Source of the DNA: Sphaerochaeta globosa str. Buddy
GTDB taxonomy: Bacteria; Spirochaetota; Spirochaetia; Sphaerochaetales; Sphaerochaetaceae
Direction of reading: 5' to 3'
Length of the DNA stretch: 64,000 nt
NCBI RefSeq assembly: GCF_000190435.1
Contig: NC_015152.1
Span: 378,458 to 442,457 of the forward strand
Made by a program: the position numbers and the translations under genes. Every line of letters begins with the position of its first letter. Position 1 is the first letter of the stretch. Shown here one piece after another: positions 15,273-47,471 of the stretch. The notes beneath the pieces were generated by a model. It saw only the letters and a program-made list of their open reading frames with translations. It did no database searches and had not been told where the DNA came from.

Positions 15273-15581
15273 ACTTGGTATTTGGACATCTGACTAAAGA
15301 TTTTTCAATTGTCTGATATATTGCTTATATAAATGTCAATTAGCAAAGAAATCTAGTCAGTTGATATGGATTTATTCCTGAATCTAGTTTACAGGCTTGT
15401 GATAGAATGCTAGGCTACTATCTAGCCGTGGGATGGGATATATGAACGACAAGTTTGTCTCATTCCTTACCATCTTTTTTATGGGTTCGTCCCGAAAAAA
15501 GAGTGGCTGTATACACCCTGTTTCCAGAACTTTCTGGGTTGGGGAAGGTCTGTCCAAATTATTGATTGATTGAGGACTTGC
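15273..15581 (+). promoter_or_regulatory. Leader region of the polysaccharide locus
   Basis: This 309-base gap has no gene. It contains TGATAGAAT (15400-15408), an extended -10 box (TG-n-TAGAAT), inside a 14-base string shared with the gap before rmlD (see 32996). It also holds a 6+6 inverted repeat CCAGAA-CT-TTCTGG (15524-15537). A long untranslated leader of about 170 bases would run from the -10 box to the ATG at 15582. No recognised riboswitch or JUMPstart element is seen. Confidence 0.4.
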
Positions 15582-17396
15582 ATGGGTTCAACGGAACATT
15601 CACGATACAGAAAAACGCTGACATTACTTATCATTGATGCCATTCTATTCATTATTAGTGGGCTGATTGCTGATTGGATAGTATTTGGCTCTTTTCCTTC
15701 TAAGAGTTTTATCGTGATTGGCTTATCATCCCTTGTACTTTTGCAGACGCTTTATTTCAGTAAGTTTTACCATATTCGAGTAAGTGAAGGTTCTATTGAT
15801 CTCATTAACAGAAGCTTTATCAGCTTCTTTCCTCTCCTCTTTACCGGTGGTATCGCAAGCTTGATATTTACGGGGTATAATCCTCGGTGGATTCCCTTTT
15901 TCATTGTGTATTTTGGCTTCTCATTTCTTTTCATTATGGGAGTAAGGTTTACCTATCGTAATCTTCAAGCACAGAAATCTGTGCGCACAAGTTCCCAATT
16001 TCCACGTACTGTGGTGTATGGGGCCGGGGATCTTGGTAATACGCTGGTTAGGCAATACAAAAAAGGTAATTTACCGTATCACATCGCAGGATTTGTTGAT
16101 GACAATCCTTCCTTACGGGGAACCTACTTATTAGGGATAAAGGTATACGGGAACTTAGATAATCTTGCAGACACCATTACTCAAGTACAGGCGAAAGTAC
16201 TTATTATAGCAATTACTCATATAGACCAAGAGCAGATACTTAAGGCTGTCGATGCAGCAAGGGATGCAGGCTGTGACATCAAGGTCATCCCCTCGCTGTT
16301 TGAGATGCAGCAGGGTGCCAAGGAACTGGACCTCAGAAACCTCGACTACGGTGACCTGTTGGGCCGCTCGCTGATCAGCATCGACAAGGAGCCGATCAAG
16401 AAAATGGTCCTGCAGAAGCGGGTGCTCATCACCGGGGCCGGCGGCTCCATCGGCAGCGAGATCTGCAAGCAGCTGCTGACCTACGGACCCGCCCAGTTGA
16501 TCCTCCTGGATATCGACGAAACCGAGCTGCACGACCTGTCGCTGAGGCTTCACAACTACCAGAAGGAGTGGAGCGACCTGGTCGTCCCTGTGGTCTGCGA
16601 CATCAAGAACCGCAAGAAGATCGACAGGATCATGGAGCAGTACAAGCCGCAGCTGGTTTTCCATGCGGCTGCCTACAAGCACGTGCCGCTTCAGGAGCTC
16701 TATCCCGAGGAAGCCATCACGACCAACATCCTGGGCTCCTATGCCGTGCTCAAGAGCGCAAAGGAGCACCGGGTGGAGAAGGTGGTGGTCATCTCCACCG
16801 ACAAGGCGGTGAACCCGACCAACGTGATGGGCGCCACCAAGCGCGTGGTCGAGCTCATGGCTGGCATGCTCAATTCGTCCGAGACGGAAATGGTGTGCGT
16901 GCGCTTCGGCAACGTGCTGGGAAGCCGTGGGAGCATGCTGCCCCTGTTCATGGAACAGATAAAGGCGGGCGTCCCGATCACCGTCACCCACAAGGACATC
17001 ATCCGCTACTTCATGGCAATCCCCGAGGCCGTGGGTCTTGTATTCAAGGCGGCCTCGATGGCCAAGGGCGGGGAAGTCATGGTGCTGGACATGGGCCAGC
17101 CGGTGAGGATCTACGACTTTGCCGAGAAGCTGGTCAAGTACTACGGCGACGGCCGCAGCCAGGTGATCGTCACGGGTCTCAGGCCCGGAGAGAAGCTCTA
17201 TGAGGAGCTGTTGGCCAACAAGGATACGACCATAGCCACCGAGGACAAGCTGGTCTTCAAGGCGCAGGTGAGCAACCATGAGCTGTCCGAGCTCACCTTC
17301 CTCAACCACTACCTGACAACCTTCCAGAATGGAAACCCTGATGAGATGCTGGCGATGCTGCATCAGTTGGTACCGGAGTTCAAGGGTAGCAAATAG
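15582..17396 (+). CDS. Nucleoside-diphosphate-sugar 4,6-dehydratase, CapD/FlaA1/PglF type
   Basis: This is a 604-residue two-domain protein. Residues 1-130 hold four to five membrane segments. A first Rossmann domain (VYGAGDLGNTLV) follows, then the catalytic short-chain dehydrogenase domain (ITGAGGSIGSEI, AYKHVPLQE, STDKAVNPTNVMGATKR). Homologues convert UDP-GlcNAc to a 4-keto-6-deoxy sugar for bacillosamine, QuiNAc or FucNAc. ATG 15582 has a GAGGA site; TTG 15570 is less likely. Base use changes sharply near 16260 (residue about 227): AT-rich upstream, strongly GC-rich downstream. This suggests that the gene is a recombination mosaic at the edge of the locus. Confidence 0.9.
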   Translation: MGSTEHSRYRKTLTLLIIDAILFIISGLIADWIVFGSFPSKSFIVIGLSSLVLLQTLYFSKFYHIRVSEGSIDLINRSFISFFPLLFTGGIASLIFTGYNPRWIPFFIVYFGFSFLFIMGVRFTYRNLQAQKSVRTSSQFPRTVVYGAGDLGNTLVRQYKKGNLPYHIAGFVDDNPSLRGTYLLGIKVYGNLDNLADTITQVQAKVLIIAITHIDQEQILKAVDAARDAGCDIKVIPSLFEMQQGAKELDLRNLDYGDLLGRSLISIDKEPIKKMVLQKRVLITGAGGSIGSEICKQLLTYGPAQLILLDIDETELHDLSLRLHNYQKEWSDLVVPVVCDIKNRKKIDRIMEQYKPQLVFHAAAYKHVPLQELYPEEAITTNILGSYAVLKSAKEHRVEKVVVISTDKAVNPTNVMGATKRVVELMAGMLNSSETEMVCVRFGNVLGSRGSMLPLFMEQIKAGVPITVTHKDIIRYFMAIPEAVGLVFKAASMAKGGEVMVLDMGQPVRIYDFAEKLVKYYGDGRSQVIVTGLRPGEKLYEELLANKDTTIATEDKLVFKAQVSNHELSELTFLNHYLTTFQNGNPDEMLAMLHQLVPEFKGSK

Positions 17397-17527: not shown

Positions 17528-18367
17528 ATGTCGTTAAGATTGATGTACATTACAAATAATCCCAAGATAGCATTGATCGCCGAGCAAAATGGTGTAGATA
17601 GAATTTGGATTGATCTTGAGACTCTTGGCAAAGAAGAAAGACAAAAGGGGATAAACTCTGTTAAATCAAATCATTCGATTTCAGACATATCATCTATTTC
17701 CAAGATTCTTACGTCATCAGAGTTGCTTGTCCGTGTAAATCCTTGGAATGAGGATTCTGTATTGCAAATTAATCAAGTAATCGATGCCGGAGCAGAGCTA
17801 ATAATGCTTCCCATGTGGAGAAGTCCTGAGGAAGTTAAGTCCTTTATTGAAGTAGTTTCTAATAGAACAAAAACGATACTTCTTTTGGAAACAAAAGAAG
17901 CTATTGATTGTCTGGACGAAGTCCTCAATCTTTCAGGAATTGACGAAATACATATTGGATTAAATGATCTTCACATCGCTTTAGGAAAGACTTTTATGTT
18001 TGAGTTACTTGCAGATGGTACTGTAGAGAGTCTTTGCAGAAAAATTCGAAAAGCTAGGATTCCTTATGGATTTGGTGGTATAGCAAAAATTGGTGATGGC
18101 CTTTTACCAGCTGAGAAGATAATATTGGAGCACTATCGTCTTGGCTCAACAAGAGCGATTCTATCACGTACTTTCTGTGATAATGCCCATATTCAGGATA
18201 TTGAAGAGATTCGCAAAGTGTTTGAATTGAATATGAAGAAACTTAGGACCTTTGAAGAGTATGCTGCGATACAGAATGAGGAAGCACTTTTGAAGAATAA
18301 GGAAGAAGTCTTGATTGGAGTTAAGGCAGTAGTTGAGATGATGAGGAAGGTTTGTATTCATGAATAA
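17528..18367 (+). CDS. HpcH/HpaI aldolase / citrate lyase family protein
   Basis: This 279-residue protein looks like a TIM-barrel aldolase of the HpcH/HpaI family. The likely metal ligands are the glutamate in LLLETKEAI (about 120) and the aspartate in IHIGLNDLH (about 145). Members cleave or form carbon-carbon bonds at 2-oxo acids. It overlaps the next gene, a PLP decarboxylase, by 8 bases, so both probably serve one small-molecule pathway that supplies a sugar substituent or acyl group for the surface polysaccharide. The substrate is unknown. Confidence 0.75.
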   Translation: MSLRLMYITNNPKIALIAEQNGVDRIWIDLETLGKEERQKGINSVKSNHSISDISSISKILTSSELLVRVNPWNEDSVLQINQVIDAGAELIMLPMWRSPEEVKSFIEVVSNRTKTILLLETKEAIDCLDEVLNLSGIDEIHIGLNDLHIALGKTFMFELLADGTVESLCRKIRKARIPYGFGGIAKIGDGLLPAEKIILEHYRLGSTRAILSRTFCDNAHIQDIEEIRKVFELNMKKLRTFEEYAAIQNEEALLKNKEEVLIGVKAVVEMMRKVCIHE

Positions 18368-19562
18368 GAAACAACTGTTCAAACTTCAAAAAGAATTCGG
18401 AAATGCTTTTTATTTGGTAGACTCTGCAAGGTTTAGAGAAAACTTTCGCGAATTACGGGATGCCTTTTCACTAATATATCCGAAATTCAACATTGCATAT
18501 TCATACAAGACGAATTACACGCCAAAGCTATGTAAGATTGTTAATGACCTCGGCGGTTACGCAGAAGTCGTATCTGATATGGAGATGGAAATTGCACTTC
18601 GAGTAGGTGTTAAGCCGGAGAAAATTATCTGGAATGGACCTATTAAGAATTATTCGAAAGTTGAAGGCTTTCTTCTGGCAGGAGGAAAGGTTAATCTTGA
18701 TTCCCTGTATGAGGTTCCACTCATCAAGACTATTGCCGATAAGCATCCAGAAAAAAAAATACAAATCGGAATTAGGGTAAATTTTGAAATCAATGATGGC
18801 GTTATCTCAAGATTTGGTTTTGATGTAGACTCCGATGATTTCAAGGAAGCTTTGGCACTAACCAAGATTCAAAATATCCATCTCTATGGCATGCAATGCC
18901 ATTTTGCAACAAGAAAACTGGAAACTTGGAAACCTAGGGCGGAAGGGATGATAAGACTTCTAGATTCTTTGAATATTATTCCAGAAATTGTTGATTTAGG
19001 TGGAGGCCTTTTTGGAAAAATGGCCGATTCCCTAAAAAGTCAATTTGACTCAGATATCCCAACGTACAATGAGTATGCGGCTGAAATCGCTCCATTGTTT
19101 GCTGAACGATACGGTAATGATGGGCCGATGCTTATTCTTGAACCAGGTAGTGCACTTGTTGGAGATTGTATGCAATTCGCAACTACCGTTGAGAATATCA
19201 AAAACATTCGAGGAAAGGCGATTGCGACTGTACTCGGAAGTATCTACAACATAAATCCAACACTGAACAAGAAGAATCCTCCCTTGGAAGTAGTTAGTTG
19301 TGGGATAGTTCAAGAATTTTTTCAGGACTTGGATTTTGGTGGATTTACTTGTATTGAGTCTGACTATATCTATCGTCACTATCAAGGTAATATTGCTGTT
19401 GGTGATATGGTAATATTTGGCAATGCTGGCTCCTATTCAATAGTTCTTAAGCCCCCGTTTATTCTTCCCAACTTCCCTGTACTGGATATCAGCGAAGCAG
19501 AGGTGGAAATCTTGAAGCGAGGTGAGGCCTTCGATGATCTTTTTCACACATTCACATTTTAA
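18360..19562 (+). CDS. PLP-dependent decarboxylase, DapDC/ornithine decarboxylase fold type III
   Basis: This 400-residue protein matches the Orn/DAP/Arg decarboxylase 2 family: PLP lysine K50 in AYSYKTNY, VSDMEMEIAL, FGFDVDS, the glycine-rich DLGGGLF motif and LEPGSALVG. It is not expected to be the housekeeping LysA, because it overlaps the aldolase gene and lies next to a sugar transferase and an aminotransferase in the polysaccharide locus. Related enzymes act on D-amino acids or carboxylated intermediates. Exact chemistry is unresolved. Confidence 0.82.
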   Translation: MNKKQLFKLQKEFGNAFYLVDSARFRENFRELRDAFSLIYPKFNIAYSYKTNYTPKLCKIVNDLGGYAEVVSDMEMEIALRVGVKPEKIIWNGPIKNYSKVEGFLLAGGKVNLDSLYEVPLIKTIADKHPEKKIQIGIRVNFEINDGVISRFGFDVDSDDFKEALALTKIQNIHLYGMQCHFATRKLETWKPRAEGMIRLLDSLNIIPEIVDLGGGLFGKMADSLKSQFDSDIPTYNEYAAEIAPLFAERYGNDGPMLILEPGSALVGDCMQFATTVENIKNIRGKAIATVLGSIYNINPTLNKKNPPLEVVSCGIVQEFFQDLDFGGFTCIESDYIYRHYQGNIAVGDMVIFGNAGSYSIVLKPPFILPNFPVLDISEAEVEILKRGEAFDDLFHTFTF

Positions 19563-19570
19563 AGGTATAT

Positions 19571-20248
19571 ATGATTAATCTTGCTATTAAACGCTTATTC
19601 GATATTGTTGGCTCATTCCTTGCTCTTGTTTTTCTTTTACCCGTATGGATTGTAATTCCGATAGCTATCAAGTTGGATTCGAGAGGTCCTGTTTTTTTTA
19701 GACAGAAAAGATTGACAAAAGATGGGCGTATATTCGAGATGTATAAGTTTCGTTCGATGATTGTAAACGCTGAGATAATGGATGCTGGTTTGTTTAATTT
19801 TGAGAATGACCCAAGAGTGACAAGATTGGGAAGGTTCTTACGTAACTGTAGCATTGATGAGTTACCGCAACTCATGAATATTCTTAAAGGTGATATGGCG
19901 ATTATCGGACCAAGGCCTAGTGTTGTGTATGAACTTGGAGAATTTGGAACCCTCAACAAGAAATATAAAAAGCGGTTTTCCATGAAAGCAGGATTAACTG
20001 GCTTGGCACAAGTAAAAGGTCGAAATGACATCAATTGGGATGAAAAAGTTACATTGGATAATCAGTACATTGATCTTTTCAACCAATATGGGGTTCTGAT
20101 TGATTTAAAGTTGATTATTCTTTCAATTTTTGCAGTGTTCAGGAAGGACGAAATCTACGAAGCAAAAGCAAATGAAGACTTGAGCGATGCTGAAGCAGCA
20201 AAATTTGCAGAAGAGGAAATTATTCGAATAGCCCATCTCCCGGATTGA
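19571..20248 (+). CDS. Priming sugar-1-phosphate transferase to undecaprenyl phosphate (PglC/WcaJ type)
   Basis: This 225-residue monotopic phosphoglycosyl transferase has a single N-terminal re-entrant hydrophobic helix (about 7-30) followed by GPVFFRQKR, EMYKFRSM, DPRVTRLGRFLR, DELPQLMNIL and GPRP. It moves a sugar-1-phosphate from UDP-sugar to the lipid carrier and so starts repeat-unit assembly. It is the only priming enzyme in the window, so both flippase/polymerase sets may depend on it. A dehydratase upstream and an aminotransferase downstream suggest an amino-deoxy sugar as first residue, but that aminotransferase is class IV rather than a DegT sugar aminotransferase. Confidence 0.92.
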   Translation: MINLAIKRLFDIVGSFLALVFLLPVWIVIPIAIKLDSRGPVFFRQKRLTKDGRIFEMYKFRSMIVNAEIMDAGLFNFENDPRVTRLGRFLRNCSIDELPQLMNILKGDMAIIGPRPSVVYELGEFGTLNKKYKKRFSMKAGLTGLAQVKGRNDINWDEKVTLDNQYIDLFNQYGVLIDLKLIILSIFAVFRKDEIYEAKANEDLSDAEAAKFAEEEIIRIAHLPD

Positions 20249-20269
20249 GTGTTCCTAAGGATGAAAAAT

Positions 20270-21187
20270 ATGAAGACAGATGTGAGTAATAGATTTATCT
20301 GGTTCAAAGGTGAAATCTTAAATGTCAATGATGCAAAGATTAATGTTCTTGCACCAACTGCGCAGTTCGGACTGAATGTATTTGAAGGAATTCCCTGTTA
20401 TTGGAATGATGAAAAGAAACAGTTATATGCCTTTCGGCTCCATGATCACTATGAGCGATTATTAAAATCTGCAAGGTTGTTGCAACTGGATTGCCCCTAC
20501 ACTGAAGAAGATATGAAGAAAGCTCTCATTGATGTCGTAATCGCCAATGAGTATTCAGAGAATCTCTCTGTTAGGCAGACATTGTTCGTTGATGGATTTG
20601 GTTCTTGGGGCTCTGAAGGCCCAGTTGATATGTTTGTTGCTCCTATTCCAAAAGGGAAAACTGGTTCCGAATACAATAAGAAAGGCTTAAACTGCTGCGT
20701 TACATCTTGGACACGGATCAATGATAACAGTCTTTCACCTAGGATTAAATGCGGAGCGAATTACATAAATAGCCGTATGGGACAGAGGGAAGCCATACGT
20801 AATGGTTATGATACCTGCATATTCTTGAATGAAGCAGGGAAGGTTTCAGAAGGTCCTGGTTCGTGTTTCTTCATGGTTAAAAACGACGTTCTTGTTACTC
20901 CCCCTCTGACGGATTCTGTACTTGAAAGTATAACGAGAGACACTGTTATCAAATTAGCAGAAAGGATTGGAATGAAGATTATTGAGAGGAGTATAAATCG
21001 AACGGAACTGTATGTTTGCGATGAAGCCTTTCTCTGTGGCTCTGCTATGGAAATAACTCCCGTTCTCAGTGTTGACCGATATGTTATCAATAGAGGGGAA
21101 GTAGGAAGAATTACGAATGCGCTTCATAAAGAATACTTAGTAGCTACAGTTAGCGGAACTCAAGAATGGAATACTCCAATTTATTGA
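20270..21187 (+). CDS. Class-IV aminotransferase, branched-chain-like
   Basis: This protein of about 305 residues is of fold type IV (BCAT/D-amino acid transaminase). It shows FEGIPCYW, the PLP lysine within PRIKCGANYINSRMGQREA, and the phosphate-binding VSEGPGSCFFMV. The start at ATG 20270 is chosen for a TAAGGA site eight bases upstream; GTG 20249 and ATG 20261 are alternatives. With the aldolase and decarboxylase upstream it could make an unusual amino acid for attachment to the glycan. A housekeeping leucine/isoleucine role is possible but the position argues against it. Confidence 0.82.
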   Translation: MKTDVSNRFIWFKGEILNVNDAKINVLAPTAQFGLNVFEGIPCYWNDEKKQLYAFRLHDHYERLLKSARLLQLDCPYTEEDMKKALIDVVIANEYSENLSVRQTLFVDGFGSWGSEGPVDMFVAPIPKGKTGSEYNKKGLNCCVTSWTRINDNSLSPRIKCGANYINSRMGQREAIRNGYDTCIFLNEAGKVSEGPGSCFFMVKNDVLVTPPLTDSVLESITRDTVIKLAERIGMKIIERSINRTELYVCDEAFLCGSAMEITPVLSVDRYVINRGEVGRITNALHKEYLVATVSGTQEWNTPIY

Positions 21188-21199
21188 TTTGAGGTAGTT

Positions 21200-21961
21200 A
21201 TGGAATTTATTAAGGATTTAGTTTCAGTCATAATTCCAGTATATAATGCGGAGAAATTTCTTGAGAATACTTTGTTTTCTGTAATCAATCAGACATACAG
21301 GAATATAGAAATTATTCTTGTAGATGATTGCTCCAAAGATAATTCTGCTGAAATAATTAATCGCTATACTTCTGAACAAATTAAGATTGTCTATTATTTG
21401 CAAGACATGAATAAAGGTGCTGGTGCTGCAAGGAATAAGGCTCTGGAACTGGCTAAAGGGCAATATGTTGCGTTCTTGGATAGCGATGATGTGTGGTTGC
21501 CTCAAAAGATTGAACGTCAGATTGCTCTCATGAAAGAGAAAGAGACTGGATTCTCTTATGCAGCAATTGAGATGATAGATGAGGATGGTAAGCTAATAAA
21601 ACCTAAACGACATATAAAGGAAGTCTGTGATTATAACTATCTATTGCATAATACAATAATTGCAACATCTTCTGTTGTGATTGATAGAAGTATTTTTGGA
21701 GATTTCCGCATGCCATTAAGAAGAGGAGGTCAAGACTACGCCACTTGGCTAATGCTTTTGAGAAATGGAGAAGTTGCATATGGCATCAATGAGGTTCTTA
21801 GCCAGTATAGAGTAGTCAGCGGATCGCTCTCTTCAAATAAGTTAAAAAGTATAAAGCAAGTGTGGGAAATTCAAATTCAAGATGAAAAGATAGGAAAGGT
21901 TTCTGCAACACTAAATGTCAGTCATTTTATTCTCAATGCATTGATGAAATATTTATTTTAG
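21200..21961 (+). CDS. Glycosyltransferase family 2
   Basis: This 253-residue GT-A protein has VSVIIPVYNAEKFL at the N-terminus, LVDDCSKDNS, GAGAARNKAL and the DSDDVW metal motif near 95. It adds a sugar to the lipid-linked repeat unit at the cytoplasmic face. It resembles WcaA-type transferases and its donor is unknown. A GAGGT site precedes the ATG. It is followed by a 432-base gap, so it probably closes the first transcription unit of the locus. Confidence 0.88.
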   Translation: MEFIKDLVSVIIPVYNAEKFLENTLFSVINQTYRNIEIILVDDCSKDNSAEIINRYTSEQIKIVYYLQDMNKGAGAARNKALELAKGQYVAFLDSDDVWLPQKIERQIALMKEKETGFSYAAIEMIDEDGKLIKPKRHIKEVCDYNYLLHNTIIATSSVVIDRSIFGDFRMPLRRGGQDYATWLMLLRNGEVAYGINEVLSQYRVVSGSLSSNKLKSIKQVWEIQIQDEKIGKVSATLNVSHFILNALMKYLF

Positions 21962-24726: not shown

Positions 24727-26007
24727 ATGACGATAATTATCTCGATTATCATATTGTTCCTTATTCTCTACTTAAATTTTTCTTTGAAAAAGAACTTTTG
24801 GGATGCCTCGAGTTTGTTTCTTATCGAGAATTTATTTTTGGTTCTTGTTGCATTCCAATTCTTTTTTGGTGAATACCAGTTTGAAGGAAGTGTTTTTATA
24901 TGGCTTGATTTCGTGTGCTTAGTGTTTGTTTTGGGAACTCTTGCTGGAAATTCCATTTACATAAAGATTTGGCAGACTACCAATACAAAAGATGATTCTA
25001 CTATTGTGATTAAGCAACATACTTGCAATAGACGGTATTATATGTTTTTAGCAACATTTATTTGTTTGGGCATTATTGGTGCATTGTTACAACTTTTTTC
25101 ATATGGTTTTAACCTCTCAAGTTTTAGAAGTGTTGAATCTTTTCTTGCTATGAATGCCAAAGTCGCAAGTAATCGTTATAGTGGTTCTGAGAGTTCTGTC
25201 AGCACATTTACCCAGATTCTTCTGTGTTTTTCGTATGCATCCCCATTGCTAGGGGGTTATCTCCTTAGCATTTCAAAGGGGAAGTTTAGAAAAATGCTAT
25301 GCGTACTTTCCCTGCTTCCTATCGTTATCATCATGTTATACACAAATACGAAAGTAGGTTTTGTTGCTAGTGTATTTCTAATTGCTACAGGTTACATTGT
25401 TGGCTATCAAAGAAACTTTGCAACGTATCCTATAATTTCAGCAAAGACTATAGTTTTATTAATTTTTGGAGCTATGGCCTTTGTTGCTGTATTGATTCTT
25501 GTTATGTCAATCCGAATTGGAGAATTATCCTTTCAGACACTGCAAGTGGTGGTTGGAAAATTTATGGATTACGGCTTTGGGGAAATAAAGGCTCTTGATG
25601 TATGGTTTGCCAACTATAATGAAGGTGGGCATGATATGGGATATAATACCTTTATGGCTGTATTCAATTTCATCGGGATAGGTACAAAGAAACAGGGAGT
25701 GTATGAACTTCTCCCGGGAGCAACTAGTAATGTATTCACTGGATATAGAGGGGTGATTATGGACTTTGGGCTTATTGGAGGAATTATTTTCTATGCTCTT
25801 CTTGGCTTACTCAGTGGAATTGCATCAAGCAAAATTAAGTACTCGCAAAAAAGTCTTTTCTCAATGTTTTTCCTTATGTCCGTCTATTTTTTTAATTTCC
25901 ATAGTTTACTAATATCTCCTTGGGTTTATACCTCATATATTTTGGCATTTATTATTTGTATTTTTGCTGCAATCATTTCTGAGAAGGTAAGTTTTGCATG
26001 GGTATAG
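24727..26007 (+). CDS. Oligosaccharide repeat-unit polymerase (Wzy-like), first set
   Basis: This 426-residue integral membrane protein has about 11-12 hydrophobic segments and a large loop near 290-340 (AVFNFIGIGTKKQGVYELLPG, TNVFTGYRGVIMDFG). This matches the O-antigen polysaccharide polymerase Wzy family, in which overall topology rather than motifs is conserved. It would join lipid-linked repeat units at the periplasmic face. Its last 10 bases overlap the start of the interrupted flippase gene. Confidence 0.8.
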   Translation: MTIIISIIILFLILYLNFSLKKNFWDASSLFLIENLFLVLVAFQFFFGEYQFEGSVFIWLDFVCLVFVLGTLAGNSIYIKIWQTTNTKDDSTIVIKQHTCNRRYYMFLATFICLGIIGALLQLFSYGFNLSSFRSVESFLAMNAKVASNRYSGSESSVSTFTQILLCFSYASPLLGGYLLSISKGKFRKMLCVLSLLPIVIIMLYTNTKVGFVASVFLIATGYIVGYQRNFATYPIISAKTIVLLIFGAMAFVAVLILVMSIRIGELSFQTLQVVVGKFMDYGFGEIKALDVWFANYNEGGHDMGYNTFMAVFNFIGIGTKKQGVYELLPGATSNVFTGYRGVIMDFGLIGGIIFYALLGLLSGIASSKIKYSQKSLFSMFFLMSVYFFNFHSLLISPWVYTSYILAFIICIFAAIISEKVSFAWV

Positions 26008-26351
26008 GCAATTTCACGAAGGAGAAAGAATGGAATCATGATTTACTAGTAACAATAGTTGGCCAGCTTTTAGTTCTTGTAATTTCATTTGCTGTAAACA
26101 AGATTTTAGCAGTTCGCTATACAAACGAGGAGTATGCTGTATATGGAATTCTTAGGCGTTTAGCATCTGTGGTTACTTATGTTTCTTTGATGGCAATGGG
26201 GATTGCCGTTCCAAAATATTTAGCAGAATATAAAGAGAAGAAGGATGATGTTACTTATTCTCTTTTCCATATTTCATCCCTCTCAATTGTTGGGATTAGT
26301 ACCATTATAGTTTCTATTTTAGTTTATGGTTTTAGAGATAGTGCATCAGTT

Positions 26352-26359
26352 TTCTTTTT
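26352..26359. repeat. Target-site duplication, left copy
   Basis: TTCTTTTT directly abuts the left end of the IS; the identical 8 bases lie at 27554-27561 beside the right end. Eight bases is the usual duplication size for the IS1595 family. Confidence 0.93.
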
Positions 26360-27553
26360 AAACCCTCTTTTGCACAGTGTTGGTCGCCAACTGCAAATAG
26401 AGCGTTAGTTTGAGTATTTCTCTCTGTAACTGAGCGAAATAGGGTTTTCGAAAACCCTGTTGAGTAGAGTTTCAATCTTTTTGTACGGGTCGTTGGGAGG
26501 ATTGACAATAAAAGCAAAGAGGTTCAAGTAATCAGAGAGATTGGCTCTGTCAAAACCGGAATGCGAGTTCAGGAACTGCTTGAGCTGTCGACAGCGCTGG
26601 TTGATTTCGTTCATTGGATTTTCCTTGTCAGGCAAGCCTTTGAGCGACTTCGAGCTATGAGCTTCACTCACCAAGTGCAGGTCTTTCACCAGACTGTCAT
26701 GGCTTTTCTCTCTATCATGGACAAGGGTTGTCCCTGGCTCGATATGATGAAGGAATGCCTCCAACGTTTTCTTGGAGGATGTCTTTCCGTTCCCCTCGAT
26801 GGTACAGAAAACATGGCCGGAGAGATCGCATCCTATCCCCATGCAGATCTGGTTTCGTGATAGACCACGATACTGCAGCCCATCCTCCTTCATCTGGATA
26901 TCTTCTTTCCTCAGCTTGTAGAAGGTCTCATCGATGTAAGCTTTTCCCCTGAGAACAATAGTATCTTGGTATCCCCTGAGTGTAAGGCAGAGTTTGGATG
27001 TCCAGTAATTCGTTGTTGTGTCGCTGTTTCTGTTTGATTTCGATACTGAGTTGAAGCTCTGCATCCTGAACAAGCCGAGCAGATAATCCACCCATTCGCT
27101 TATGGGTATCTTGTGGTTGTCGAATATGGTGCCCGTTGTGACCGTGAAAGTCCTTTCGCAATCCGAACACCGGTAACGTCTGACATGGTTGCTCGTGAAT
27201 CCGTATTTCTGGATCTTGAGGCTCTGGCAATACCGGCACTCCTGGGGTGCATAGGAGTTGAGAAGCTCACTTTCTTCGGTGTCCGAAATTGAGGGATGCT
27301 TCTTCTTGTAGTTGGACAGATTGATTGCATCAATGAATGATTGCAACGGGGTCGCATCGTCCTTGCCGGTCCAGGGTGTCTCCTTCCTGGATGAAGTGAT
27401 ATGCTTGGGCATTGTGGTAGTCCTAAGCATTGGGAGAAGAAGGGGCATGTACTACCACATCTTCTGCTCCATCGCCCTCTCAATGCCTTATTACCTTACC
27501 ACTAATTTCAATATTTTGCTAACAGTTTACCAACACTGTGCAAAAGAGGGTTT
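26360..27553. mobile_element. IS1595-family (ISXO2-like) insertion sequence, intact
   Basis: This 1194-base element is bounded by perfect 25-base terminal inverted repeats (26360-26384 and 27529-27553, outer end AAACCCTCTTTTGCACAGTG). It is flanked by the 8-base direct repeat TTCTTTTT and holds one full-length transposase on the - strand. Its base composition is more GC-rich than the host flippase gene. Intact ends, target duplication and reading frame suggest an active or recently active element. Confidence 0.95.
26405..27412 (-). CDS. IS1595-family transposase with zinc ribbon and ISXO2-like domain
   Basis: This transposase is about 335 residues long from ATG 27412, where AGGA lies upstream; an in-frame start at 27448 is possible. 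The N-terminal zinc ribbon has the cysteine pairs CRYC and CSDC, followed by TGTIFDNHKIPISEWVDYL. The ISXO2-like catalytic domain shows YIDETFY (first Asp), LVHDREKSH (second Asp) and NEINQRCRQLKQFLNSHSGF (third catalytic position and conserved end). It catalyses movement of the element interrupting the flippase. Confidence 0.93.
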   Translation of the reverse strand: MPKHITSSRKETPWTGKDDATPLQSFIDAINLSNYKKKHPSISDTEESELLNSYAPQECRYCQSLKIQKYGFTSNHVRRYRCSDCERTFTVTTGTIFDNHKIPISEWVDYLLGLFRMQSFNSVSKSNRNSDTTTNYWTSKLCLTLRGYQDTIVLRGKAYIDETFYKLRKEDIQMKEDGLQYRGLSRNQICMGIGCDLSGHVFCTIEGNGKTSSKKTLEAFLHHIEPGTTLVHDREKSHDSLVKDLHLVSEAHSSKSLKGLPDKENPMNEINQRCRQLKQFLNSHSGFDRANLSDYLNLFAFIVNPPNDPYKKIETLLNRVFENPISLSYREKYSN

Positions 27554-27561
27554 TTCTTTTT
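27554..27561. repeat. Target-site duplication, right copy
   Basis: TTCTTTTT, identical to 26352-26359. Flippase coding sequence resumes at 27562. Confidence 0.93.
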
Positions 27562-28588
27562 AGGTGACAATAAATATTTTTCGTATATTCTTCCAGCTTT
27601 AGTTTTTGCTTGCGGGTCAACTTTTTTAACCTTCGTATACTCTTTCTTTCGAGGAGCAGGAAATTTCATTAGATATAGCACTTCTCAGATATTTACCCAG
27701 ATTCTTCTTCTTCTAGCCCTTTTTATTACAGGATCCAAAATCGAGAGTTTCCTTTTGTTAAGTGGCTTGATTTTTATTTTGTATTCTGCGTTAAGTCTAT
27801 TCAAACCGACTAAAAAAAGTCTTCATTTCATGAAGCATTCATCTGTTTCCGATTTTCGCGAATCAATGAAAGTACTTCTTAAGTATGGAGTACCTAGGGT
27901 TCCAGGTGAATTTGTATTATTTGCGTATAATCTAGTTCCGCTTTCTATCTGTGCCCATAAATTTGGTCTTGTCGAGACGTCGTATCTTTCTGCATCAATA
28001 ACTATAAATAATCTTATAACTCCTTTTTTTAGCTTTGCTGGAATCGTATTGCTTCCAATTGCGAGCAAGGTTTCTGTAAATAAAAAATATGACGATTTGT
28101 CAGAAAAGGTTAAAAACCTAGGAATAATCTATCTGTTCGTTGGTGTATTAGGGGTTGTTTTTGTCAATATTTTCGGAACTTCACTTATTAAGATAGTCCT
28201 TAGTGAAAGTTATTTATCTGCACTAAATATTATTCGCATTATGGTCCTTTCTGTTATTCCCTATTCAATATATTTACTGCTTCGAAATCCCATTGATGGG
28301 TTATCAATTTTCCCCTATAACACGATTTCGCTTTCTATTACATTCGCAATTACATGTATAATGATGTTTCTGTCCAGTTCAATACTGCAATGTGTTTGGG
28401 CCTTTTTTTTTGGATATGTAATCTTGGCCTGCTTGTCTTTCTTTTTCTGGAAGCTGGTGAAAAATGAAGATAAAAACAAGCAGGATAGGGATTAAGAAGA
28501 TGTATGTTGAGGGAGCTTCCTATTAGCGGTGAAGTGACGCTTACATCTATCATAACAAAGACTTGGATGAAAATGAATATTTCATGAT

Positions 28589-33269: not shown

Positions 33270-34169
33270 ATGACGATTCTGATAACAGGAGCCAAGGGCC
33301 AGCTCGGCAACGAGCTCTGCAGGATATTGGGGGAAGGTGTCTCCGAGAGGGGGGAACTTCCTCTTTTTTATGAGCGAAGCAGGATTGTTGCCGTCGACGT
33401 CGACGAGCTGGACATCACCACATCCGATGCGGTTGACTCCTTCTTCGCCCTGCACAAACCTAATCTCGTCTTCAACTGTGCCGCCATGACCAACGTGGAC
33501 GGCTGCGAAGGCAACGAGGATGCGGCATATCTTGTCAATGCCGTCGGGCCCAAAAACCTTGCCGTTGCCTGCGAAAGGCATGGGGCGCGTCTGATGCACA
33601 TCTCCACCGACTACGTATTCGACGGCCTTGGCACAAGACCCTACGTGGAGACCGACGAGCCGGCGCCCAACACCGCCTACGGGCGGAGCAAGCTGGCAGG
33701 CGAGCGGTTCGTGCTTGCCTCCTGCAGGAACAGCTGCATCTGCCGCACCGCATGGCTGTACGGCTATATAGGCAACAACTTTGTCAAGACTCTGCTTCGG
33801 CTTGCCAGGGAGAAAGGATCGCTGACGGTGGTGGACGACCAGGTGGGCAACCCTACCAGCGCCGTGGACCTCGCCTGGCAGCTGGCGCTGCTTGCGGCAT
33901 CGCAAGAGACCGGCATCTTCCACTGCACCTGCAATGGTGAGGCGGTGAGCTGGAATGCGTTTGCCAAAAGGATCATGGAGAAGGCGGGACTTGCCGTGGA
34001 GGTGAAGGCCTGCACCACAGCCCAGTTCCCCCGGCCTGCAAAACGACCTGCATATTCGGCACTTGAGAACAGACATCTCAGGGAAACGATAGGGGACAGT
34101 ATGCGTGATTGGAAGGAGGCTTTGGACAGCTTCCTTGTGAACTACCTAGAACAGGAGAGAAGGCAATGA
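33270..34169 (+). CDS. rmlD: dTDP-4-dehydrorhamnose reductase, copy 1
   Basis: This 299-residue short-chain dehydrogenase has TILITGAKGQLGNEL at the N-terminus, STDYVFDG, and the catalytic tyrosine and lysine in AYGRSK. It performs the final NAD(P)H-dependent reduction of dTDP-4-keto-rhamnose to dTDP-L-rhamnose. The gene is visibly GC-rich compared with its neighbours upstream. It overlaps rmlB by four bases. Copy 2 lies exactly 6654 bases downstream; from residue about 152 to the end the two proteins differ at a single position. Confidence 0.95.
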   Translation: MTILITGAKGQLGNELCRILGEGVSERGELPLFYERSRIVAVDVDELDITTSDAVDSFFALHKPNLVFNCAAMTNVDGCEGNEDAAYLVNAVGPKNLAVACERHGARLMHISTDYVFDGLGTRPYVETDEPAPNTAYGRSKLAGERFVLASCRNSCICRTAWLYGYIGNNFVKTLLRLAREKGSLTVVDDQVGNPTSAVDLAWQLALLAASQETGIFHCTCNGEAVSWNAFAKRIMEKAGLAVEVKACTTAQFPRPAKRPAYSALENRHLRETIGDSMRDWKEALDSFLVNYLEQERRQ

Positions 34170-35227
34170 GCAAGACCTACCTGGTTACCGGAGGGGCCGG
34201 CTTCATCGGCTCGAACTTCATCCACTACCTGCTGAAGAAGCATCAGGACATTCTTATCGTCAACGTGGACAAGCTGACCTATGCGGGAAACCTTGAGAAC
34301 CTTAAGTCGGTCATGAACGACAAGCGGCACGTATTCGTACAGGCCGACATCTGTGATGCACAGGCCATGCAGAAGCTGTTCGAACTATACACCATAGACT
34401 ATGTGGTGAACTTCGCTGCAGAGAGTCATGTGGACCGCTCCATCACCGATCCGGACGTGTTCGTCAGGACGAACGTGATGGGGACGCTGAACCTGCTGAA
34501 CATAGCCAAGGCCAATTGGACCATGGGTGATGACGCCTACCGCGAGGGTGTGAAGTTCCAGCAGGTCTCCACCGACGAGGTGTACGGCTCGCTGGGTCCC
34601 GAGGGCTTCTTCACCGAGACGACGCCCCTGGATCCGCACAGCCCGTATTCTGCCAGCAAGACCTCGGCCGACCTGTTCGTGAAGGCATATGCCGATACAT
34701 ACAAGCTTCCGGTTACCATCACCCGCTGCTCGAACAACTACGGGCCGTACCAGTTCCCCGAGAAGCTCATCCCGCTGATGATCAACAACTGCCTGAACAA
34801 GCAGAGTCTTCCGGTGTACGGGGACGGGATGCAGATCCGCGACTGGCTGTATGTTGAGGACCACTGCAAGGCCATCGACCTGGTGCTCCAGAAGGGAAGG
34901 GCAGGCGAGGTGTACAATGTGGGAGGGCATAACGAGCAGCCCAACATAGCCATCGTGAGGAGCATCATCGCCTATGTGGGAGAGAAGGTGGACCCAAGCA
35001 TCGACGAGAGCCTGATAAGGCATGTGACCGACAGAAAGGGACACGACCGGCGCTACGGCATCGACCCGAGCAAGATACGCGAGGAGCTTGGGTGGGAGCC
35101 GGAGACGATGTTCGCCGAGGGCATCGGGAAGACCATAGACTGGTACCTTGGGAACCGGCAGTGGATGGAGCATGTGACAAGCGGCTCCTACCAGAATTAC
35201 TACCAAGAGATGTACGCAAACCGATAG
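34166..35227 (+). CDS. rmlB: dTDP-glucose 4,6-dehydratase, copy 1
   Basis: This 353-residue extended SDR has GGAGFIGSNF, STDEVYGSLG, the catalytic YSASKTSAD with Tyr/Lys, and NNYGPYQFPEKLIPLMI. It converts dTDP-glucose to dTDP-4-keto-6-deoxyglucose, the second step of dTDP-rhamnose synthesis. ATG 34166 overlaps the rmlD stop and has AGGAGAGAAGG upstream; an in-frame start at 34109 lies within rmlD and is rejected. Copy 2 differs at only a few positions, such as T/A before TPLDP and AYVGEK/SYVSEK. Confidence 0.96.
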   Translation: MSKTYLVTGGAGFIGSNFIHYLLKKHQDILIVNVDKLTYAGNLENLKSVMNDKRHVFVQADICDAQAMQKLFELYTIDYVVNFAAESHVDRSITDPDVFVRTNVMGTLNLLNIAKANWTMGDDAYREGVKFQQVSTDEVYGSLGPEGFFTETTPLDPHSPYSASKTSADLFVKAYADTYKLPVTITRCSNNYGPYQFPEKLIPLMINNCLNKQSLPVYGDGMQIRDWLYVEDHCKAIDLVLQKGRAGEVYNVGGHNEQPNIAIVRSIIAYVGEKVDPSIDESLIRHVTDRKGHDRRYGIDPSKIREELGWEPETMFAEGIGKTIDWYLGNRQWMEHVTSGSYQNYYQEMYANR

Positions 35228-35243
35228 GCAAAGAGGAAAGCAG

Positions 35244-35786
35244 GTGGGACAATTCACATTCACCAAGACGGATATTGAAGGGGTGTTCGTCATCGAGCCG
35301 AGGGTGTTCGGTGATGAGAGGGGCTACTTCATGGAGACCTACAACAAGGCAGATTTCCACAAGGCCGGCATAAATAACGAATTCGTACAAGACAACCAGA
35401 GCAAGTCCAGAAAAGGAGTATTGCGAGGCTTGCACTTCCAGAAGCAGTATCCGCAGGCCAAGCTTGTGAGGGTGACCAAGGGCGAGGTGTACGATGTGGC
35501 CGTCGACCTGAGGAAGGACAGCCCCACCTATGGGAAGTATGTGGGGGTGCATCTCTCTGCCGAGAAGAAGAACCAGTTCTTCATCCCCCGGGGCTTCGCC
35601 CATGGATTCCTGGTGCTCTCGGATGAGGCCGAGTTCACCTACAAGTGCGACGAGTTCTACCACCCTGAGGACGAGGGCAGCATCAGGTGGGATGACCCGA
35701 TTATTGGGATTCAGTGGCCCGAGATTGGGATTCTTTTTTCATTGAGTGAAAAGGATAAAGCATTGGGTATTTTTCTTGAAAATTGA
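35244..35786 (+). CDS. rmlC: dTDP-4-dehydrorhamnose 3,5-epimerase, copy 1
   Basis: This 180-residue cupin starts with GTG and carries FGDERGYFMETY, SKSRKGVLRGLHFQ (catalytic His region), GEVYDVAVDLR and FIPRGFAHGFLVLSDEAEFTYKCDEFYHP. It epimerises C3 and C5 of the keto-sugar. The last 30 codons turn AT-rich and differ from copy 2 (ILFSLSEKDKALGIFLEN here), suggesting a recombination joint near 35700. Confidence 0.95.
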   Translation: MGQFTFTKTDIEGVFVIEPRVFGDERGYFMETYNKADFHKAGINNEFVQDNQSKSRKGVLRGLHFQKQYPQAKLVRVTKGEVYDVAVDLRKDSPTYGKYVGVHLSAEKKNQFFIPRGFAHGFLVLSDEAEFTYKCDEFYHPEDEGSIRWDDPIIGIQWPEIGILFSLSEKDKALGIFLEN

Positions 35787-39923: not shown

Positions 39924-40823
39924 ATGACGATACTCATTACTGGTGCTCATGGCCAGCTAGGAAATGAATTACAAAAAATACTAGAGGAAGCAACCTCCGA
40001 GAGGGGGAAGCTTCCTCTTTTTTATGAGCGAAGCAGGATTGTTGCCGTCGATGTCGACGAGCTGGACATCACCTCATCTGATGCTGTTGATGCTTTCTTT
40101 TCCGTCCACAAACCTAACCTTGCCTTCAATTGTGCCGCCATGACCAACGTGGACGGCTGCGAGGGCAACGAGGATGCGGCATACCTGGTCAACGCCGTCG
40201 GGCCCAAAAACCTTGCCCTCGCCTGCGAGAGGCATGGTGCTCGTCTGATGCACATCTCCACCGACTACGTATTCGACGGCCTGGGCACAAGACCCTACGT
40301 GGAGACCGACGAGACTGCACCCAACACCGCCTACGGGCGGAGCAAGCTTGCAGGCGAACAGTTCGTCCTTGCCTCATGCAGGAACAGCTGCATCTGCCGC
40401 ACCGCATGGCTGTACGGCTATATAGGCAACAACTTTGTCAAGACTCTGCTTCGGCTTGCCAGGGAGAAAGGATCGCTGACGGTGGTGGACGACCAGGTGG
40501 GCAACCCTACCAGCGCCGTGGACCTCGCCTGGCAGCTGGCGCTGCTTGCGGCATCGCAAGAGACCGGCATCTTCCACTGCACCTGCAATGGTGAGGCGGT
40601 GAGCTGGAATGCGTTTGCCAAAAGGATCATGGAGAAGGCGGGACTTGCCGTGGAGGTGAAGGCCTGCACCACAGCCCAGTTCCCCCGGCCTGCAAAACGA
40701 CCTGCATATTCGGCACTTGAGAACAGACATCTCAGGAAAACGATAGGGGACAGTATGCGTGATTGGAAGGAGGCTTTGGACAGCTTCCTTGTGAACTACC
40801 TAGAACAGGAGAGAAGGCAATGA
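39924..40823 (+). CDS. rmlD: dTDP-4-dehydrorhamnose reductase, copy 2
   Basis: This 299-residue protein is near-identical to copy 1. Differences cluster in the first 150 residues (for example QKILEEATSERGK against CRILGEGVSERGE). The first 90 bases are AT-richer here. From base 40377 the DNA matches copy 1 with one mismatch to the gene end (E/K in LRxTIGDS). It follows rmlA by nine bases and overlaps rmlB by four. Confidence 0.95.
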   Translation: MTILITGAHGQLGNELQKILEEATSERGKLPLFYERSRIVAVDVDELDITSSDAVDAFFSVHKPNLAFNCAAMTNVDGCEGNEDAAYLVNAVGPKNLALACERHGARLMHISTDYVFDGLGTRPYVETDETAPNTAYGRSKLAGEQFVLASCRNSCICRTAWLYGYIGNNFVKTLLRLAREKGSLTVVDDQVGNPTSAVDLAWQLALLAASQETGIFHCTCNGEAVSWNAFAKRIMEKAGLAVEVKACTTAQFPRPAKRPAYSALENRHLRKTIGDSMRDWKEALDSFLVNYLEQERRQ

Positions 40824-41881
40824 GCAAGACCTACCTGGTTACCGGAGGGGCCGGCTTCATCGGCTCGAACTTCATCCACTACCTGCTGAAGAAGCATCAG
40901 GACATTCTTATCGTCAACGTGGACAAGCTGACCTATGCGGGAAACCTTGAGAACCTTAAGTCGGTCATGAACGACAAGCGGCACGTATTCGTACAGGCCG
41001 ACATCTGTGATGCACAGGCCATGCAGAAGCTGTTCGAACTATACACCATAGACTATGTGGTGAACTTCGCTGCAGAGAGTCATGTGGACCGCTCCATCAC
41101 CGATCCGGACGTGTTCGTCAGGACGAACGTGATGGGGACGCTGAACCTGCTGAACATAGCCAAGGCCAATTGGACCATGGGTGATGACGCCTACCGCGAG
41201 GGTGTGAAGTTCCAGCAGGTCTCCACCGACGAGGTGTATGGCTCGCTGGGACCCGAGGGGTTTTTCACCGAGGCTACGCCCCTGGACCCGCACAGCCCGT
41301 ATTCTGCCAGCAAGACCTCTGCCGACCTGTTCGTGAAGGCGTATGCCGACACCTACAAGCTCCCGGTTACCATCACCCGCTGCTCGAACAACTACGGGCC
41401 GTACCAGTTCCCCGAGAAGCTCATCCCGCTGATGATCAACAACTGCCTGAACAAGCAGAGTCTTCCGGTGTACGGGGACGGGATGCAGATCCGCGACTGG
41501 CTGTATGTTGAGGACCACTGCAAGGCCATCGACCTGGTGCTCCAGAAGGGAAGGGCAGGCGAGGTGTACAATGTGGGAGGGCATAACGAGCAGCCCAACA
41601 TAGCCATCGTGAGGAGCATCATCTCCTATGTGTCCGAGAAGGTCGATCCGAGCATCGACGAGAGCCTGATCAAGCACGTGACTGACCGCAAGGGCCATGA
41701 CAGGCGCTACGGCATCGACCCGAGCAAGATTCGCGAGGAGCTGGGCTGGGAGCCTGAGACGATGTTCGCCGAGGGCATCAGGAAGACCATAGACTGGTAC
41801 CTTGAGAACCGGCAGTGGATGGAGCATGTGACCAGCGGCTCCTACCAGAATTATTACCAAGAGATGTATGCAAACAGATAG
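40820..41881 (+). CDS. rmlB: dTDP-glucose 4,6-dehydratase, copy 2
   Basis: This 353-residue enzyme has the same motifs as copy 1 (GGAGFIGSNF, YSASKTSAD, NNYGPYQFPEKL). Amino-acid changes are few: EATPLDP for ETTPLDP, SYVSEK for AYVGEK, LIKHV for LIRHV and GIRKTIDWYLENR for GIGKTIDWYLGNR. It should be fully active and redundant with copy 1. ATG 40820 is coupled to the rmlD stop. Confidence 0.96.
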   Translation: MSKTYLVTGGAGFIGSNFIHYLLKKHQDILIVNVDKLTYAGNLENLKSVMNDKRHVFVQADICDAQAMQKLFELYTIDYVVNFAAESHVDRSITDPDVFVRTNVMGTLNLLNIAKANWTMGDDAYREGVKFQQVSTDEVYGSLGPEGFFTEATPLDPHSPYSASKTSADLFVKAYADTYKLPVTITRCSNNYGPYQFPEKLIPLMINNCLNKQSLPVYGDGMQIRDWLYVEDHCKAIDLVLQKGRAGEVYNVGGHNEQPNIAIVRSIISYVSEKVDPSIDESLIKHVTDRKGHDRRYGIDPSKIREELGWEPETMFAEGIRKTIDWYLENRQWMEHVTSGSYQNYYQEMYANR

Positions 41882-41896
41882 GGAAGAGGGATACAG

Positions 41897-42448
41897 GTGG
41901 GACAGTTTACATTCACCAGGACGGATATAGAAGGGGTGCTCATCATCGAGCCGAGGGTGTTCGGTGATGAGCGTGGCTACTTCATGGAGACGTACAACAA
42001 GGCCGATTTTTACAAGGCGGGCATCACGTGCGAGTTCGTGCAGGACAACCAGAGCAAGTCACGCAAGGGCGTACTTAGGGGGCTCCATTTCCAGAAGCAG
42101 TATCCACAGGCAAAACTTGTGAGAGTGACTAAGGGCGAGGTGTACGATGTTGCGGTGGATTTGAGGAAGGAAAGCCCCACGTATGGAAAATATGTAGGAG
42201 CTACACTTAGTGCTGAATTAAAAAACCAATTTTTCATTCCCCGGGGCTTCGCCCATGGATTCCTGGTGCTCTCCGATGAGGCCGAGTTCACCTACAAGTG
42301 CGACGAGTTCTATCACCCCGAGGACGAGGGTGGCATCAGGTGGGATGACCCGAGTATTGGGATTCAGTGGCCGGAAATTGGGATTGAGTATTGCTTGAGT
42401 GAGAAGGACAAGGCTTTATCCACTTTGATGGGAAGAAATGATGACTAA
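41897..42448 (+). CDS. rmlC: dTDP-4-dehydrorhamnose 3,5-epimerase, copy 2
   Basis: This 183-residue epimerase starts with GTG and shows SKSRKGVLRGLHFQ and FIPRGFAHGFLVLSDEAEF. Base composition is mosaic: GC-rich to about 42110, an AT-rich stretch to about 42240 (encoding YGKYVGATLSAELKNQFF), then GC-rich again. The C-terminus (GIEYCLSEKDKALSTLMGRNDD) differs from copy 1. The end overlaps the next gene by 11 bases. Confidence 0.95.
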   Translation: MGQFTFTRTDIEGVLIIEPRVFGDERGYFMETYNKADFYKAGITCEFVQDNQSKSRKGVLRGLHFQKQYPQAKLVRVTKGEVYDVAVDLRKESPTYGKYVGATLSAELKNQFFIPRGFAHGFLVLSDEAEFTYKCDEFYHPEDEGGIRWDDPSIGIQWPEIGIEYCLSEKDKALSTLMGRNDD

Positions 42449-45938: not shown

Positions 45939-47471
45939 TTGAGTAGAATAGCAAATGCAAAACGTAATATTAGGTATGGCTATATCAATACCTTAGTTTC
46001 TCTATTTTTAAAGTTCCTAACAAGAACAGTGTTTATCTATACAATTGGAGTCACGTATTTAGGTGTAAATGGCTTATTTACTAATATATTGTCAGTCTTA
46101 TCACTAGCAGATCTTGGAATCTCAACAGCCCTAAACTTCAGTCTCTACAAACCTGTTGCTCAAAAAGATATCCAAAAGATTAAAGCATTAATGCAGATTT
46201 TCAGGAAAGCGTATAGCATCATTGCTATAGTCATTGCAATCCTTGGCTTAGCACTTCTTCCGTTTCTTTCAATATTTATCAAGAATCCAATTGGGATAAC
46301 ACATTCTGAGCTGGTTCTATACTACTTGCTTTTTCTCTTCAATACGGTAAGTACATATTTTGTATCCTATAAATACAGCCTTGCGAATGCAGATCAAAGG
46401 AATTACATCGAGACAAATTTTCAAACAGCCACCATTCTCGTTACTTCTCTTGTTCAAGTGGCAGCCCTACTGATTTTTAAAAGTTTCCTTTTTTATCTCT
46501 TATCAGCGACAGTAATCGAGCTGTTTCATAAAATTCTAGTAAATATATATCTAAATAAGCGTTACCCTTACCTCGCTGAGCAAGTTGAAGGTACCCTAAC
46601 TAAAGAAGAATTAATCCCGATCAAACGCAATATCAAAGCATTGGTTTTTCATAAGATTGGGACGGTGGCTGTCCATCAGACTGATAACATTCTTATTTCC
46701 ACATTTATTGATGTTTCCACTGTTGGTATTGTTTCAAATTATGTTCTCGTAATGCATTCAATAACGTCTTTCATAAATATTGCGTTCAATGCTTTGGTTT
46801 CGGGATTAGGCAATCTAGTGGCTACTGAAGACCTTGAAAGGCAGTACACGATTTTCAAAGTATATCGATTTGTTGGATTTTGGTTATATGGTTTTTTCTC
46901 AATCTCTTTTGCACTTCTCTTAAGCCCATTTATACACATTTGGCTTGGAAAGGAGATGGTTCTAGCAAGTGGCGTAATCTATGTGATTCTTATAGATTAC
47001 TATATTAAGGGACATCGAATTGTAGTGAATAATTTTAAAACTGCCGCTGGAGTTTTTGACCAAGACAAATATATCTCACTACTTCAGGCCATCGTTAATC
47101 TAGTTGTGTCTATCGTATTGGTCTTGAGAATTGGATTGATAGGTATATATATTGGTACGGTCGTACAGGGGCTGATATTCACATTTTCTAGGCCGGCAAT
47201 TTTGTATAAGCATGTATTTAAAAAGAAAGCTTACTTATATTATAAAGATTCATTGTTCTATGTTGTTGTTTTGGCAATACCTCTTGTAGCATTGTTCTGG
47301 ATACAGAAACAGTTTTTTTCTACAATCTCCATTCTAAACTTTCTCCTATTTGGTATGATAGACGTGGTCGTTGTTAATGGTGCATTTCTCTTTTTGCTCC
47401 ATAAACGAGAAGAGTTCAGCTATCTTAAAAATTTATTTATTAAAAAATTGGGACGGAAATCGCATGTCTGA
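45939..47471 (+). CDS. Wzx-like polysaccharide flippase, second set
   Basis: This 510-residue membrane protein has 12-14 segments and begins SRIANAKRNIRYGYINTLVSLFLKFLTRTVFIYTIGVTYLGVNGLF, the family's N-terminus. Start codon is TTG at 45939, with GAGG seven bases upstream; the N-terminal match supports it. It is intact, unlike the flippase at 25998, and belongs to a different subgroup. It probably moves lipid-linked repeat units across the membrane for the downstream set, and may cover for the broken one if specificity allows. Confidence 0.9.
   Translation: MSRIANAKRNIRYGYINTLVSLFLKFLTRTVFIYTIGVTYLGVNGLFTNILSVLSLADLGISTALNFSLYKPVAQKDIQKIKALMQIFRKAYSIIAIVIAILGLALLPFLSIFIKNPIGITHSELVLYYLLFLFNTVSTYFVSYKYSLANADQRNYIETNFQTATILVTSLVQVAALLIFKSFLFYLLSATVIELFHKILVNIYLNKRYPYLAEQVEGTLTKEELIPIKRNIKALVFHKIGTVAVHQTDNILISTFIDVSTVGIVSNYVLVMHSITSFINIAFNALVSGLGNLVATEDLERQYTIFKVYRFVGFWLYGFFSISFALLLSPFIHIWLGKEMVLASGVIYVILIDYYIKGHRIVVNNFKTAAGVFDQDKYISLLQAIVNLVVSIVLVLRIGLIGIYIGTVVQGLIFTFSRPAILYKHVFKKKAYLYYKDSLFYVVVLAIPLVALFWIQKQFFSTISILNFLLFGMIDVVVVNGAFLFLLHKREEFSYLKNLFIKKLGRKSHV

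Follow-up and report, generated by a model that had tools for sequence, protein, structure and literature searches.

The 64,000-nucleotide stretch of the Sphaerochaeta globosa str. Buddy genome analyzed here (contig NC_015152.1, positions 378,458 to 442,457; the window) holds a glycan locus with consecutive genes for an aldolase (ALD), a decarboxylase (DEC), a priming phosphoglycosyl transferase (PGT), and an aminotransferase (AT). We found that these four genes form a real mobile cassette. We lean toward the reading that a surface polysaccharide receives a nonstandard, amine-bearing building block from the cassette; the enzymatic steps, the sequence in which they occur, and the connection with the glycan are predicted. 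The host genome is complete (3,316,466 bases), and the four genes lie head to tail:

17528..18367, plus strand: ALD, HpcH/HpaI-fold (pyruvate-enolate-type) aldolase of a distinct subfamily (279 amino acids; PF03328)
18360..19562, plus strand: DEC, fold-type III pyridoxal phosphate (PLP) amino acid decarboxylase of a distinct subfamily (400 amino acids; PF02784 and PF00278)
19571..20248, plus strand: PGT, small priming phosphoglycosyl transferase of the PglC type, with a PF02397 Bac_transf domain (208 bits) on a protein of only 225 amino acids
20249..21187, plus strand: AT, class IV aminotransferase resembling branched-chain aminotransferases (PF01063; NCBIfam ilvE_I)

Pfam and NCBIfam agree with the family assignments made in an earlier note on this DNA, and the overlap of ALD and DEC that it described measures 8 bp. 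The note placed the three small-molecule enzymes around the priming transferase, which is right as to position, but PGT itself belongs to the conserved unit.

We used the aldolase alignment to scan 84,980 species genomes and obtained 289 relatives, of which 80 had readable loci. With two spirochete loci and one Rhodobacterales plasmid added, this gave 83 loci, all recruited by ALD alone. Gene presence was scored by tblastn, as a count based on open reading frames (ORFs) misses genes hidden by overlapping ORFs. All four genes were present in 46 of the 83 loci, and four more carried ALD, DEC, and AT, so that the co-occurrence in other polysaccharide loci for which the earlier note had proposed to look does exist. 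Three further loci had ALD, PGT, and AT, and one had ALD and DEC on a contig that ends inside DEC. In every locus with a clean ORF map, the genes followed the order ALD-DEC-PGT-AT, with neighbors mostly a few bases apart or overlapping by as little. DEC and AT occurred together in Bacillota, Bacteroidota, Fibrobacterota, Spirochaetota, and one metagenome-assembled genome labeled Myxococcota; among gut Clostridia the cassette is widely distributed, and it extends to Prevotella, Fibrobacter, and spirochetes. Eubacterium callanderi, Blautia schinkii, and Anaerovibrio lipolyticus are among its culturable carriers. As an unbiased control, we ran the DEC and ALD profiles independently against 348 genomes of a single family. 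All five DEC matches above 600 bits lay directly behind ALD, within ∼35 bp, and the next DEC-like match scored 318 bits. The same order in roughly half of the 83 loci, together with the occurrence of DEC only beside ALD in the 348 genomes, puts the gene set far from chance. Mirror-tree correlations between the four genes were moderate (0.25 to 0.55), suggesting that the cassette has been partly reshuffled rather than strictly coinherited. ALD and DEC form a single open frame in two loci (L024, 683 amino acids; L090, 695 amino acids) from different parts of the ALD tree, which suggests that this fusion probably arose twice.

Close to its host, ALD is rare. Across 100 family-level genomes, a full-length copy was present in one congener only (77% identity), the only other match spanning 34 residues at a contig end, and one further genome of the phylum sample carried it (59% identity). 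This sparse distribution is that of an accessory, horizontally distributed gene. A plasmid search with ALD returned only Rhodobacterales relatives at 38% identity, beside NeuB and AsnB, plus weaker partial matches, and none were found in a scan of viral contigs. Two different Rhodobacterales plasmids (L016 and L017) share a polysaccharide locus in which DegT, asparagine synthase-like, ALD, and NeuB-like genes stand in a row.

The loci recruited by ALD fall into alternative states. AT and/or DEC were found in 54 of the 83 loci and a 2-hydroxyacid dehydrogenase in 17, eleven belonging to PF02826 (a D-specific family) and six to PF02615 (Ldh_2); no locus had both (P = 2.5 × 10−10 by Fisher's exact test, uncorrected for kinship). 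The ALD tree requires at least 6 changes between the two states, compared with ∼15 for shuffled labels, indicating that the states are clustered yet have switched repeatedly; where independent pairs on supported branches differ, they are always opposite. Dehydrogenases of the D and L types and aminotransferases have a 2-oxo acid as their common substrate, which is also the product of a pyruvate-type aldolase. The swap thus suggests that the product of ALD is a 2-oxo acid with two alternative fates: reduction, or amination that is usually followed by decarboxylation to an amine. DEC occurred without AT only where the contig ends inside DEC, while AT occurred without DEC in three loci; decarboxylation therefore most likely follows transamination.

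Under the reading that we favor, ALD would use divalent metal to condense an aldehyde or ketone with a pyruvate-like donor, yielding a 2-oxo acid. AT would transaminate this product to an alpha-amino acid, and DEC would strip its carboxyl group to leave a primary amine. PGT would commit to the lipid carrier either the modified sugar itself or the glycan destined to receive the group. In the sister loci, the 2-hydroxyacid dehydrogenase would reduce the same aldolase product to a hydroxy acid. The earlier note had listed aldol addition, decarboxylation, and transamination, and these reaction types fit, although the last two are better placed in the opposite order. It had also suggested an amino or hydroxy acid as the product. 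As DEC is found only with AT, and in most loci, an amine is the likelier outcome there, with a hydroxy acid expected in the dehydrogenase loci.

ALD is a remote member of its family, scoring 47 bits against PF03328 HpcH_HpaI (cutoff, 25) and falling far under every NCBIfam equivalog cutoff, including those for the HpaI, GarL, and RhmA types. It nevertheless has the metal-binding Glu and Asp on a triosephosphate isomerase (TIM) barrel and the enolate-stabilizing Arg that mark the superfamily: Glu121, Asp147, and Arg69 are invariant in 64 sequences and align with the metal ligands and the enolate Arg of the paralogues. The AlphaFold model (predicted local distance difference test score, 93.7) has HpaI aldolases and pyruvate kinase as its nearest folds. 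Pyruvate kinase was discarded as a function, since its high structural rank reflects the common superfamily fold. ALD resembles the HpaI/YfaU/HKA class II pyruvate aldolases in fold, in the Mg-binding Glu and Asp, and in the Arg after beta-3, but at 16 to 20% identity, and it has motifs of its own (GKExRQ and HIGLNDLH). In all ALD rows aligned, the GIRG segment and the HpaI-type catalytic His ("EH" motif) are replaced or deleted.

DEC matches PF02784 at 90.5 bits, along with PF00278, and the four residues expected of a fold-type III decarboxylase (PLP-binding Lys50, Cys331, Glu333, and Asp335) are invariant in 50 sequences. Against the curated lysA model, it scores 134.2 bits, under half of the 297.9 cutoff. 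The LysA of the same genome has ECGR and LMRPALY where DEC has EPGS and NINPTLN; the arginines of EPGR and LxRPxxY, which we take to hold the far carboxylate in LysA, are both lost, which sets DEC outside LysA. Conversely, ordinary LysA proteins of cassette genomes score below 80 bits against the DEC profile, indicating that DEC is a distinct family. Its best profile match in the PDB is 7kh2 (FslC, an N-citrylornithine decarboxylase; E value, 5.6 × 10−45), and its model is close to BtrK, DapDC, FslC, and SbnH (Z scores, 36 to 40, with SbnH at 36). This neighborhood raises the reading that the cassette is a carboxylate siderophore-like module of the SbnG/SbnH or FslC type, with a citrate-type aldolase and a citryl-amino acid decarboxylase. 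We regard it as the least probable reading of all: the genes sit in a glycan context with PGT and glycosyltransferases, and the IucA/IucC synthetase of siderophore synthesis independent of nonribosomal peptide synthetases (NIS) was absent from all 12 cassette genomes searched, with the Escherichia coli and Haloferax volcanii controls positive. On this absence, the siderophore module was rejected. DEC does share the fold type of the FslC/SbnH/BtrK group, as well as the NGPxK motif with FslC. It differs in identity (∼24%), in lying in a glycan locus with PGT and with no NIS synthetase or carrier protein nearby, and in being accompanied always by the aldolase and nearly always by the aminotransferase.

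Distant DEC relatives (28 to 38% identity) occur in other glycan loci, where some are paired with a PylC-like ATP-grasp ligase and others share a chain with a NeuA-type cytidylyltransferase. From these partners, the group seems to act on amino acids joined to larger carriers. In two loci (L112:5402-7435 and L117:5394-7322), the relative is fused behind the NeuA-type domain, beside NeuB-like and ATP-grasp genes, and is apparently another undescribed decarboxylase, in nonulosonic acid loci. At L111:6419-8736, a DEC relative stands with a PylC-like ATP-grasp gene among prophage-looking genes.

AT matches PF01063 at 169.5 bits and scores 274.5 bits with ilvE_I, above the cutoff of 245.55; it shares 65 to 83% identity with its aminotransferase counterparts in the L013 and L014 cassettes. 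Judged from the sequence, its true start is more likely the ATG at 20261 or 20270 than the GTG at 20249: the close L013 homolog begins at the residue encoded at 20270, which also has AAGG ∼9 bases upstream. In its class IV fold, PLP-binding Lys, and conserved carboxylate Arg, AT is like IlvE type I (nearest structures, 5ce8 and 6h65), but it sits in a glycan cassette, and the genome has a separate full-length ilvE of type II (437 bits; cutoff, 307). The ilvE_I score and the 134-bit lysA match of DEC would suit ordinary lysine and branched-chain enzymes that merely chance to sit in a polysaccharide locus. We consider this very improbable and rejected such a housekeeping role for ALD, DEC, and AT because both paralogues lie elsewhere in the genome, the LysA-like gene (293 bits) immediately downstream of a gene for a class I aminotransferase of the LL-diaminopimelate type. 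The low lysA score of DEC, its lost arginines, and the gene order fixed across phyla argue the same way.

Two genes flank the cassette in the window:

15570..17396, plus strand: CapD/PglF-like membrane UDP-N-acetylglucosamine 4,6-dehydratase upstream of ALD (PF02719, 363 bits, with CoA_binding_3)
21200..21961, plus strand: TuaG-like family 2 glycosyltransferase (NCBIfam TuaG, 265 bits, under the cutoff)

In roughly half of the loci with all four genes, a TuaG-like glycosyltransferase gene comes directly after AT. By association, the dehydratase is a possible source of a 4-keto sugar acceptor. PF02719 dehydratase genes were present in 12 of 12 cassette genomes, which is weak evidence because 81 of 120 background genomes (68%) were also positive at a stricter E value; CapD as an obligatory acceptor source is accordingly unproven.

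Where the amine is made divides the favored reading. One possibility, which we hold tentatively and which would be a special case of that reading, is chemistry on the sugar: ALD would extend a keto- or aldehydo-UDP-sugar (e.g., the 4-keto product of CapD) by a pyruvyl unit, AT and DEC would convert this unit to an aminoethyl branch, and PGT would load the branched sugar. The protein encoded at L036:7023-8837 has, by Pfam, a transmembrane and CoA_binding_3 module in its N-terminal half and ALD in its C-terminal half, and L047:6993-8831 and L048:7026-8837 were put in the same class by tblastn match position, ORF size, and cluster. This module elsewhere heads PGTs and CapD dehydratases, although it may serve localization only; the neighbor of the L036 fusion is itself a fusion of VanZ with Bac_transf, a priming transferase. 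PGT adjoins ALD in either order, depending on the locus. Among the 78 genes downstream of the four-gene loci (three per locus), no amide or acyl ligase recurred, while glycosyltransferases and LicD did. The lack of a recurrent ligase and the fusion of ALD to a membrane domain of UDP-sugar enzymes suggest that the chemistry may occur on the sugar, and the closeness of DEC to an enzyme that decarboxylates a carrier-bound amino acid points the same way, as does, weakly, the dehydratase encoded in all 12 cassette genomes. Against this, we know of no glycan with an aminoethyl-type branch. A slightly more doubtful proposal is that a keto-sugar, either nucleotide-activated or linked to lipid, is the substrate of the aldolase, giving a C-branched sugar with a 2-oxo acid arm that would then become an aminoethyl arm by amination and decarboxylation or a hydroxy acid arm by reduction; to our knowledge, branched amino sugars made by such an aldolase route have not been reported from surface glycans.

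The other possibility, to which we give about the same modest weight as chemistry on a nucleotide sugar, is synthesis of a free gamma-hydroxy amino acid or amino alcohol that would be coupled to the glycan afterward through an amide, ester, or phosphodiester bond. HpaI-type aldolases classically act on free aldehydes, which speaks for a free molecule, as do the LicD and CTP_transf_like genes of some loci. A study of Campylobacter jejuni, whose capsule bears ethanolamine and serinol, offers a precedent in amine-amidated glucuronate (PMC12409886). No recurrent ligase was found in the three genes downstream of each four-gene locus, however, and LicD is found in a minority of loci.

Several points weigh against an amine-supplying cassette as a whole. 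The acceptor, substrate, and product are predicted by class only. Without the HpaI catalytic His, the chemistry of ALD may differ, and the in vitro substrate of AT could still be branched-chain, given that the ilvE_I cutoff is passed. The steps could also run in reverse order, with DEC acting first, followed by an amine transaminase and then the aldol step. Twelve of the 83 loci showed neither fate within the DNA fetched, and the pair test on supported ALD branches had just two independent pairs, with which it cannot reach significance.

Other features of the glycan locus stand apart from the cassette. An IS1595-like element at 26360-27553 (25-bp perfect terminal repeats; 8-bp target duplication, TTCTTTTT; transposase at 26405-27448 on the minus strand) interrupts a flippase-like gene at 25998-28495, so glycan assembly may be altered in this strain. 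A second flippase-like ORF lies at 45939-47471; both flippase calls rest on appearance, with no Pfam match. The rmlD-rmlB-rmlC block of dTDP-rhamnose genes is present twice, in near-identical copies ∼6.6 kb apart (33270-35786 and 39924-42448). By eye, the ORF at 48490-49869 is of the FrhB/FdhB type, and FrhB_FdhB_C genes recur next to LicD genes in cassette loci (e.g., L022 and L038).

Given the spread of the cassette, its building block may occur commonly in the surface glycans with which phages and the immune system come into contact. For paired strains with the same aldolase, the swap predicts that one glycan would carry an amine where the other has a hydroxy acid. The cassette enzymes are small, soluble, and assayable.

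Among the titles listed in a literature search that covered few subscription journals, none of relevance linked an aldolase or HpcH to the synthesis of capsules, O antigens, or exopolysaccharides. To the extent of this search, the cassette is undescribed, in line with the earlier note, which knew of no pathway with this set; its enzyme families are known. The bacillosamine arrangement PglF-PglE-PglD-PglC clusters a dehydratase and tailoring enzymes with a PglC-type PGT. The window locus likewise combines a CapD/PglF-like dehydratase and tailoring enzymes with such a PGT, but the DegT aminotransferase and acetyltransferase are replaced by the aldolase, the class IV aminotransferase, and the decarboxylase. 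In C. jejuni, the capsule amines come from fold-type I PLP enzymes and a dedicated amide ligase. The cassette, unlike that system, uses an aldolase, a class IV aminotransferase, and a LysA-like decarboxylase, with no recurrent ligase in the three downstream genes per locus. The two systems would be alike in yielding an amine-bearing surface polysaccharide, predicted for the cassette and reported for the C. jejuni capsule, which is modified with ethanolamine and serinol (PMC12409886).

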